Assembly: GCF_033366695.1 (NCBI RefSeq)
Contig: NZ_JAOBTQ010000001.1
Location: 3,782,001 to 3,846,000 of the forward strand
Direction of reading: 5' to 3'
DNA: 64,000 bases
Source: Streptomyces sp. SCL15-4
GTDB taxonomy: Bacteria; Actinomycetota; Actinomycetes; Streptomycetales; Streptomycetaceae
Program-made: the position numbers and the translations under genes
Shown: positions 49,758 through 52,088 of the stretch, piece after piece
Layout of the letters: each line of letters opens with the position of its first letter
Numbering within the stretch: the stretch's first letter is position 1
Notes under the pieces: generated by a model
The model's input: the letters and a program-made list of their open reading frames with translations, nothing else
Told to the model about the DNA's origin: nothing
The model's database searches: none

Positions 49758-50924
49758 GTGACGGATGAGACGACGGGCGGACGCACCGGGCAGCCCGGTC
49801 CGCGCGGCTGGCGCGCGGCGGCCGGGGCGGCGCTGTACGGGCCGGACGGCTTCTACCGGCGTCCGGAGGGTCCGGCCGGTCACTTCCGTACGTCCGTGCA
49901 CGCCTCCCCGCTGTTCGCGCGGGCCGTGGCCCGGCTGCTGTGCCGGGTGGACGCGGCGCTCGGGGCCCCCGCCGTGCTCGACTTCGTGGACATGGGCGCC
50001 GGGCGGGGCGAGCTGACCGGCCGGGTGCTCGCCGCACTGCCGGACGAGGTGGCCGCGCGCACGCGTGCGTACGCCGTCGAGCTGGCCGGCCGACCGGCCG
50101 GCCTGGACGAACGGATCGTCTGGCGGAGCGAGCTTCCGGACGTGGTCACCGGGCTGCTGTTCGCCAACGAGTGGCTGGACAACGTCCCCGTGGACGTCGT
50201 GGAGGTGGACGCCGCGGGCGTGCCCCGGCTGGTGCTCGTCGCGGAGGACGGCGCCGAACGGCTCGGGGAGCCCGTGACCGGCGCGGAGGCCGACTGGCTC
50301 GCGCGCTGGTGGCCGCTGCCGGCCGAGGAGGGGCTGCGGGCGGAGATCGGGCTGCCCCGGGACCGGGCCTGGGCGGCGGCCGTGGCCCGGATGGCACGGG
50401 GACTCGCGGTGGCCGTGGACTACGCGCACACCGTGGACGCGCGCCCGCCCTTCGGAACGCTCACCGGCTTCCGCGAGGGCCGCGAGACGGCACCCGTGCC
50501 GGACGGCTCGTGCGACATCACGGCGCACGTCGCACTGGACGCGTGCGCGGCGGCACCGCGCGCGGAGTACACGCCGTGCACGCCGGCGGCTCCGGCGCGT
50601 ACGACACCGCTCACCCCTCCTACGGCACCTTCCGCGCCCTCCGTCACGGCGCGGGAGCCCGCTGGAACGGCACCCACGGCCCCCGAGGCGGCGCGCGACC
50701 TTCCAGGCCCGCGTCTGCTCACCCAACGCGCCGCCCTGCGCGCCTTGGACCTCACCGGCGCACGCCCCCCGCTCGCGCTGGCCTCCACGGACCCCTCCGC
50801 ATACGTGCGCGCCCTCGCGAGCGCCGGAGAGGCCGCCGAACTCACGGCACCGGGCGGCCTCGGCGACTTCGGCTGGCTGGTGCAGCCGGTCGGCATCCCG
50901 GACCCGCTGGAACCGGGCCGGTAG
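49758..50924 (+). CDS. MidA/NDUFAF7-family SAM-dependent methyltransferase
   Basis: A 388-residue methyltransferase. [26 protein letters not shown] at the start, then motif [16 protein letters not shown], and [16 protein letters not shown], the MidA/NDUFAF7 signature, near 145-160. The SAM site and the post-motif region [29 protein letters not shown] complete the fold. Human NDUFAF7 symmetrically dimethylates Arg85 of NDUFS2, the 49-kDa subunit of complex I. Here the next gene, tail-to-tail at a 12-bp gap, is a NuoD paralogue of that very subunit, with the Arg preserved. Start is GTG at 49758. The C-terminal tail (about 240-340) is Pro/Thr-rich. Confidence 0.85.
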
Positions 50925-50936
50925 CGACCCGGCGGC

Positions 50937-52088
50937 CTACTTGTCGATGTCGCCGACCACGAAGAACATCGAGCCCAGGATCGCGACCATGTCCGCCACC
51001 AGCGTCCCCGGCAGCAGCTCGGTCAGCGCCTGGATGTTGTTGTACGAGGCCGAGCGCAGCTTCAGCCGGTACGGCGTCTTCTCGCCCTTGCTGACCAGGT
51101 AGTAGCCGTTGATGCCGAGCGGGTTCTCGGTCCACGCGTACGTGTGCCCCTCGGGCGCCTTCAGCACCTTCGGCAGCCGCTGGTTGATCGGCCCGGGCGG
51201 CAGCCCGGCGAGCCGGTCCAGGCAGGCGTCGGCGAGGTCCAGGGCGTTGCGGGTCTGCTCCAGCAGCACCTCGAAGCGGGCGAGGCAGTCGCCCTCGGAG
51301 CGGGTCACCACCTTCAGGACGTCCTGGAGAGCGCCGTAGGCCAGGTACGGCTCGTCGCGGCGCAGATCGAAGTCGACGCCCGAGGCGCGCGCGATCGGCC
51401 CGCTCACCCCGTAGGCGTGCACCGCCTCGGGCGCGAGCGTCCCGACGCCGCGCGTGCGCCCCCGGAAGATCTCGTTGCCGAGCACCAGGTCGTCGAAGAC
51501 GTCCATGCGCGAGCGCACCGCGGCGACGGCCTCCCGCGCGCGTGCCGTCCAGCCCGCCGGCACGTCCTCCTTGAGGCCGCCGACGCGGTTGAACATGTAG
51601 TGCATGCGACCGCCGGAGACCTCCTCCATGACGTTCTGGAGCACCTCGCGCTCCCGGAACGCGTAGAACACCGGCGTGATCCCGCCCAGCTCCAGCGGGT
51701 AGGAGCCGAGGAACATCAGGTGGTTCAGCACCCGGTTCAGCTCGGCCAGCAGGGTGCGCGTCCACACCGCCCGCTCGGGGACCTCCATGCCGAGCATCCG
51801 CTCCACCGCGAGGACCACGCCCAGCTCGTTCGAGAACGCCGACAGCCAGTCGTGGCGGTTGGCGAGCACGATGATCTGCCGGTAGTCGCGCGCCTCGAAG
51901 AGCTTCTCGGCACCCCGGTGCATGTACCCGATCACCGGCTCCGCGCGCACGATGCGCTCCCCGTCCAGCACGAGCTTGAGCCGCAGCACCCCGTGCGTGG
52001 ACGGATGCTGCGGCCCGATGTTCAGCACCATGTCGGTGCTCTCCGCCGCGCCGCCGATGCCGACCGTGGTCTCCGTCGTAGGAGTCAT
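50937..52088 (-). CDS. Stand-alone NuoD (49-kDa, NADH dehydrogenase) paralogue
   Basis: A 383-residue complex I 49-kDa-type protein: [24 protein letters not shown] (22-44), [12 protein letters not shown] (54-65), [32 protein letters not shown]-like [10 protein letters not shown], and the C-terminal [30 protein letters not shown]. No other nuo gene is near, so it is a second copy outside the nuo operon, as SCO3392 in S. coelicolor. His32 (Thermus Nqo4 His38, quinone site) is kept. Thermus Tyr87, which also holds the quinone head, is Trp81 here (RHDWLSA). Arg58 in HRGAEK is the position methylated in human NDUFS2. It may assemble with other Nuo subunits in an alternate complex. ATG at 52088. 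Confidence 0.9.

Follow-up and report, generated by a model that had tools for sequence, protein, structure and literature searches.

The window analyzed here, a 64,000-nucleotide stretch of the Streptomyces sp. SCL15-4 genome, carries a gene for a SAM-dependent methyltransferase beside a stand-alone gene for NuoD, the 49-kDa subunit of complex I, and raises the question of whether the one protein modifies the other. NDUFAF7 acts on Arg85 of NDUFS2 during human complex I assembly; this dimethylation, a premise of the initial annotation of the locus, is confirmed in the available portion of PMC3829151. The available portion of Carroll 2013 (PMC3750175) finds dimethylation of this arginine in cow, human, Pichia, and also Paracoccus, with an unmodified residue in E. 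coli; it aligns the bovine dimethyl-arginine with a threonine of Thermus and, using the Thermus model, puts it ~7 Å away from cluster N2. A bacterial precedent exists: by the same excerpt, Paracoccus denitrificans Nqo4 is symmetrically dimethylated at Arg65, and alphaproteobacterial NDUFAF7 homologs are proposed as the methylating enzymes in the excerpted text of PMC9006661. For the window, the initial annotation proposed that the methyltransferase methylates the neighboring NuoD at Arg58.

Results

The window pairs a MidA-family methyltransferase with a second NuoD

The coordinates of the two open reading frames (Table 1) bear out the tail-to-tail arrangement described in the initial annotation. 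The pair now lies between folate and pantothenate/NAD genes, neighbors that we named by eye. A match to PF02636 (Methyltransf_28; E 2.1e-19, 70.4 bits, curated cut-off 23.3) upholds the assignment of the methyltransferase to the MidA/NDUFAF7 type, and the same profile (COG1565) is matched by all 20 members of our MidA alignment. Its AlphaFold model contains the seven-β-strand methyltransferase core and matches the family, including Dictyostelium MidA (5ztz), over 313–324 residues, with a low-confidence insert at residues 273–307. The 11-letter motif cited in the initial annotation is present in the protein, which carries the glycine-rich SAM motif GAGRGEL together with a conserved NE..D..P motif. 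Gly80, Gly84, Glu138, and Asp141 are invariant in the 20 aligned sequences, canonical ones among them, as are Asp221, Tyr222, Asp253, and Thr255.

Table 1 Features of the MidA/NuoD2 pair and of the second complex I cluster.
Feature	Position	Strand	Remarks
SAM-dependent methyltransferase of the MidA/NDUFAF7 family, predicted to act on protein arginine	49758..50924	+	GTG start, 388 aa
Intergenic gap, stop codon to stop codon (genes convergent)	50925..50936	.	12 bp
NuoD2, NuoD-type (49-kDa) subunit assigned to a second complex I without NuoEFG; gene detached from the cluster	50937..52088	-	ATG start, 383 aa
Trp81 codon of NuoD2	51846..51848	-	Tyr at the same place in Thermus Nqo4 (alignment)
Arg58 codon of NuoD2, in HRGAEK	51915..51917	-	predicted site of methylation, corresponding to Arg85 of bovine NDUFS2
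nuo2 cluster (A2, B2, C2, H2, I2, J2, K2, L2, M2, N2)	C1:3632291-3642191		all on one strand; locus L114 (C1:3630000-3649999)
2-oxoacid:ferredoxin oxidoreductase alpha/beta pair	C1:3646653-3649635		near nuo2 (L114)

The neighboring protein, NuoD2, matches PF00346 (Complex1_49kDa; E 1.1e-69, 235 bits against a cut-off of 24) and exceeds the cut-off of NF004739 (377.8 against 360 bits). It falls short of the TIGR01962 NuoD equivalog cut-off (385.6 against 459.35 bits), which marks it as a divergent NuoD. NuoD2 is 46.7–50.7% identical to the NuoD proteins of four operons of the 11-subunit type, compared with 35.4% to NuoD1 of its own genome. In the tree, NuoD2 proteins form one clade (18/18, support 1.0), nested in a clade with NuoDs from other actinobacterial classes (40/40, support 1.0). 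Whole-genome profile searches of the source genome, which is 99.97% complete, identify a single PF02636 gene and two NuoD genes; three PF00346 matches are present, two of them on nuoD2. The main NuoD lies within a standard nuo operon and reads HTGIEK, with threonine at the site of interest.

NuoD2 is the missing subunit of a split second nuo cluster

A second NuoB gene (C1:3641308) belongs to a nuo2 cluster that is located 190 kb from the window's NuoD2/MidA pair. Pfam agrees on the ten nuo2 proteins, identifying NuoI2 by 4Fe-4S domains only and NuoC2 by PF00329. NuoA, B, C, and H to N lie together without E, F, or G, the arrangement of an 11-subunit-type complex, and D is likewise absent from the cluster. 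The source genome contains no NuoD besides the main one and NuoD2, which is the missing D subunit of nuo2. In a comparison covering eight proteins (the main M and N fall outside the reference), nuo2 A, B, C, H, I, J, K, and L all score higher against 11-subunit-type operons of other classes than against the main complex of their own genome. Twenty further nuo2 loci, some of them on short contigs, likewise contain no NuoD match above 45 bits. The C2 protein of the source genome (L114, 9852-11180) carries an extended tail of low complexity, in which repeats such as RRMRSASEGSASQ occur.

The detachment of nuoD2 is already in print: the available text of PMC3765725 describes the Streptomyces nuo2 set (nuoA2, B2, D2, H2–N2) with nuoD2 as its sole non-contiguous gene. 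The gene set here is the same, and to that account, as far as its available text goes, our analysis adds the MidA link, the target arginine, the NuoC2 gene, and the ancestral operon with MidA.

Across the class, an NuoB2-type match (E <1e-52) occurs in 61 of 197 genomes, a tally drawn from the matches listed, among which a second NuoB of such deep families as f7 and f36 does not figure. All 61 carry MidA (59 before rechecking) and 59 carry NuoD2; the two that lack it are drafts of 72% and 80% completeness. Conversely, 24 NuoD2 genomes have no NuoB2-type match, of which 21 have at least two NuoB matches, and 18 class genomes have at least two NuoB matches without NuoD2. A NuoL-like ORF adjoining NuoD2 at one locus (L083) was rejected as a link to complex I, being by eye an MrpA-type antiporter; the matches at another locus (L061) have no adjoining NuoD2.

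The oxidoreductase pair close to nuo2 suggests ferredoxin as the electron donor. Its alpha subunit scores 659.6 bits against a TIGR03710 cut-off of 482.75, while the beta subunit remains under its cut-offs. A KorA-like gene also lies beside nuo2 at 5 of the 20 further loci (L145, L146, L147, L148, and L151), several loci ending sooner.

MidA and NuoD2 are inherited together within the class

PF02636 is matched in 40 of 41 genomes of the order (39 over the cut-off), and the HRGxEK pattern in all 41. The neighborhood recurs in other Streptomyces, as the initial annotation required: matches lie at most 1 kb apart in 24 of 26 genomes of the genus, and 5.1 and 6.9 kb apart in the remaining two. Among 197 genomes of the class, the HRG pattern occurs in 82 and PF02636 in 79; the two coincide in 74 genomes, the pattern stands alone in 8 and MidA in 5, and 110 have neither (Fisher p 2e-38, a value that ignores relatedness). 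Rechecking gave 80 with both, 3 with NuoD2 only, 3 with MidA only, and 111 with neither, a table tilted toward agreement because only the 13 discordant genomes were rechecked. Eight of these shifted to agreement or were removed, the causes being contig ends, MidA genes unreported by the Pfam search, pattern misses, and one false pattern match. G085 and G195 joined the NuoD2 set; G059, G160, G198, and G216, whose genes are visible at the locus but went unreported by the Pfam search, joined the MidA set; and the HRG match of G151, which is not a NuoD, was removed. An apparent co-decay in G195, with a truncated MidA and an HRSAER motif, was also discarded, as a run of N (an assembly gap) cuts the MidA gene.

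The three genomes left with MidA only (G054, G106, and G142) each have the gene close to a contig end. Those left with NuoD2 only are G055, a draft in which a 9.9-kb contig bears the gene, and G159 (98% complete) and G168 (97%), where NuoD2 retains the arginine and no MidA was found at the locus or by PF02636 search; the G168 locus is close to a contig end. G159 (L062) and G168 (L064) are possible natural cases of MidA loss.

In the seven families that vary, 26 genomes have both genes by their corrected states, a number reached in none of 100,000 within-family shuffles of MidA (maximum 23), with the qualification that a common history may persist among the genera of a family. The MidA–NuoD2 pairing is thus more than chance and is kept across many families.

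The pairs share a contig in 68 of the 74 raw cases, 248–11,116 bp apart. Both genes lie on the same strand in 54 of these 68; the 14 opposite pairs are 13 from the window's genus and one from G219, and outside the genus 51 of 52 same-contig pairs in the class sample are on one strand. The tail-to-tail order put forward in the initial annotation is therefore real at the window but local to part of the genus, and not the general form. A second observation on G219 is that it holds two NuoD2-like genes (L042 and L067), one a 174-aa ORF. Of the 79 loci L035–L113, 66 hold both genes, and at 7 of these (L045, L053, L058, L065, L084, L100, and L107) the MidA and NuoD2 genes have 4 bases in common, a configuration that recurs in several families. 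In many genomes 2–5 kb of other genes separate the two, and their proximity persists through inversions and insertions.

Seventeen named class loci (L154–L170) show MidA on the fetched stretch in 14, including Streptomyces iakyrus, S. narbonensis, Actinoplanes, Terrabacter, Intrasporangium flavum, Humibacillus, and Micromonospora phaseoli. Two others, from S. aculeolatus (L168) and Glycomyces (L169), have no MidA within 6 kb, and the third (L163) is a 3.1-kb contig.

Arg58 is invariant in NuoD2 but is not the signal by itself

Translation of the window confirms the HRGAEK segment with arginine at residue 58, and the threonine ascribed to Thermus Nqo4 (HTGFEK) is borne out by our alignment and by the available text of PMC3750175. 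In 71 NuoD2 proteins (longer than 300 residues, without internal stops), Arg58, Glu61, and Trp81 are present in all and Gly59 in 70. The main NuoDs of the class read HTGIEK among the matches listed. The position of Trp81 is occupied by tyrosine in Thermus, one mitochondrial, and one cyanobacterial chain in our alignments, a tyrosine that we take to be a ligand of the quinone head group. Tryptophan is found here in 40 of 40 members of the actinobacterial NuoD clade, and tyrosine in 48 of 48 other named NuoDs. Neither Arg58 nor Trp81 was placed on the NuoD2 structure model, where pLDDT is below 50 at residues 55–61 and 81–87.

The arginine as sole marker was rejected: it is present in 43 of the 48 other named NuoDs, a set biased for arginine in that it was found with an arginine-bearing pattern among others, and it is unmodified in E. 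coli. The signal is the MidA–NuoD2 pairing, not the arginine residue. Genomes from across the phylum (n=149, 12 of them in the class) contain PF02636 in 49 and the HRG pattern in 58. The 137 outside the class divide into 31 with both, 12 with MidA only, 21 with the HRGxEK pattern only, and 73 with neither. Pattern-only genomes mostly have HRGFEK/HRGLEK types. Six of the 12 MidA-only genomes belong to one family (f49) in which the NuoDs near MidA read HRAAEK and the arginine is present, a reading that leaves out the NuoDs of MidA-only G223, G248, G269, G280, and G306 and the motif of G349. The link between MidA and an arginine-bearing NuoD that phylogenetic profiling had been expected to reveal is hence near-perfect for NuoD2 within the class and weaker outside it, where arginine without MidA is common. 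Given the pattern-only genomes, G159 and G168, and the unmodified E. coli residue, the arginine can persist without MidA.

MidA ends intact operons in other actinobacterial classes

We examined four operons from other actinobacterial classes, chosen for a MidA gene ~9 kb from NuoD. Two (L115 and L116) have the order A-B-C-D-H-I-J-K-L-M-N-MidA; L117 lacks a called C, and L120 begins at C. MidA lies directly 3′ of the last nuo gene in all four. Best PF02636 E values among other-class MidA members span 1.1e-60 to 2.0e-16. Within the window's class, G061 has a MidA-NuoD2 pair with a 4-base overlap that adjoins NuoN2, one 66-aa ORF lying between, and NuoN2 runs on to a second contig bearing M2 to A2, the two contig ends sharing exactly 127 bases. 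Since MidA ends the other-class operons and the G061 pair stands at the edge of nuo2, the departure of D and MidA from the ancestral operon seems to have been a joint one; in G061 the two lie at its edge.

Two further arrangements were seen. In G061 (L234, 8307-13957), a NuoF-like gene (39.9% to the genome's own NuoF) adjoins NuoA2 and is followed by genes that by eye resemble the RuBisCO large and small subunits and CbbX. Outside Actinomycetota, in an Elusimicrobia MAG (L210, JAGWUP010000006.1), a MidA-type gene immediately precedes the nuoA gene of a nuo cluster.

Some nuo2 clusters are reduced

Only B2, C2, and I2 were found at 7 of the 20 further nuo2 loci (L142, L143, and L147–L151); L148 and L150 are short contigs, and the absence of membrane subunit genes was judged at the loci only. 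Locus L136 has A2, B2, C2, I2, and a 123-aa piece of H2, and L135 has B2, C2, H2, and I2 up to the end of the fetched stretch. Two CxxCxxCxxxC motifs are present in I2 at all 20 loci, and the CC and PGCP motifs in B2 at 19, the short called B2 of L147 being without CC; a third B2 motif was matched at 10 of 20 by a pattern that may be too strict. The reduced B2-C2-I2 loci keep most iron-sulfur cysteine motifs.

Discussion

The pairing is best explained if MidA and NuoD2 are a dedicated arginine methyltransferase and the detached D subunit of an 11-subunit-type complex I. On the strength of these sequence comparisons, MidA most likely dimethylates Arg58. The ancestor would have possessed the operon ending in MidA that other actinobacterial classes still have; in the window's class, D and MidA would have relocated together away from it, and later, in part of the genus, the pair would have turned tail-to-tail. 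MidA would bind newly made NuoD2 and dimethylate its Arg58, which would lie next to the N2 cluster in NuoB2. Homology, the pairing, and the invariant site lead us to suppose that methylation would precede the joining of NuoD2 to NuoB2, C2, and I2, in the manner of NDUFAF7 with NDUFS2 Arg85. NuoD1, with its threonine, would offer no substrate at that site.

MidA could instead serve the second complex I through another residue or subunit, elsewhere on NuoD2 or on NuoB2/NuoC2. The whole operons of other classes, which MidA ends, give NuoD no special place, and the arginine is retained without MidA in G159 and G168; yet on the splitting of the operon MidA accompanied D rather than the other ten genes (none of the 20 further nuo2 loci has a D), no more than 11.2 kb separate it from D in 68 of 74 raw pairs, and the family's known substrate is this very arginine (available portions of PMC3829151 and PMC3750175). 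We consider a different target unlikely. That MidA is an assembly chaperone of NuoD2, its methyltransferase activity lost or unimportant, would fit the high sequence divergence (reflected in the PF02636 E values given above) and the glycine-rich motifs that are altered in some class members, such as those at L084 and L110. The match of the AlphaFold model to the MidA family and the invariance of Glu138, Asp141, Asp221, Tyr222, Asp253, and Thr255 count against a chaperone, however, and make it rather improbable.

A purely historical neighborhood, in which MidA and NuoD2 are carried along without acting on each other, is harder still to credit. The intervening genes in many genomes indicate that a shared transcript is unneeded, but presence and absence agree within families in the shuffling analysis, proximity outlasts inversions and insertions, and the 4-base overlap arises in several families. 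Dimethylation of NuoD2 Arg58 by MidA accordingly remains our preferred reading, as a probable one. The interpretation offered in the initial annotation finds partial support.

The predicted system resembles mitochondrial NDUFAF7/MidA–NDUFS2 in methyltransferase family and fold and in a 49-kDa/NuoD partner with the arginine in HRGxEK. It differs in being bacterial, in the pairing of the genes, in a MidA activity that is a prediction, and in the partner, a NuoD that would serve a second complex lacking NuoEFG, the main NuoD having no arginine. Paracoccus denitrificans Nqo4 belongs to the main 14-subunit complex I, whereas NuoD2 would belong to a second, split complex in Actinomycetota. The available text of PMC11238625 describes 11-subunit-type complex I and cyanobacterial NDH-1 as lacking NuoEFG, with ferredoxin the proposed donor. 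The nuo2 complex of the window's genome is alike in lacking NuoEFG, but its D is detached, tryptophan replaces the conserved tyrosine, MidA is linked to it, and in some genomes only B2-C2-I2 remain at the cluster. Within the open-licence PMC literature, titles and abstract beginnings yielded no paper linking MidA with actinobacterial NuoD2, and we found no report there of an ancestral operon ending in MidA or of reduced B2-C2-I2 clusters.

More tentatively, MidA, NuoD2, and nuo2 might constitute a distinct actinobacterial enzyme class. Its core, devoid of the NADH module, would be fed by ferredoxin from the neighboring 2-oxoacid:ferredoxin oxidoreductase; a MidA-made dimethyl-arginine would sit beside N2; and tryptophan in place of the quinone tyrosine could alter acceptor or quinone chemistry. 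In several lineages the enzyme would have shrunk to B2-C2-D2-I2, a module without a membrane arm that keeps MidA. We regard this broader picture as possible but doubtful.

These findings explain the stray nuoD2 of Streptomyces, point to reduced complex I modules, and provide bacterial MidA beyond the Proteobacteria with a single well-defined target, predicted down to the residue. Each cell contains a built-in control, a main NuoD with threonine and a second NuoD with arginine, only the second of which travels with MidA. Since the main complex I has genes of its own, it should be possible to knock out midA, nuoD2, and nuo2 in laboratory Streptomyces. Human cells need the conserved arginine methylation to assemble complex I; through such knock-outs its purpose would become testable, and Streptomyces would offer a bacterial test bed for the NDUFAF7-type step of complex I assembly.
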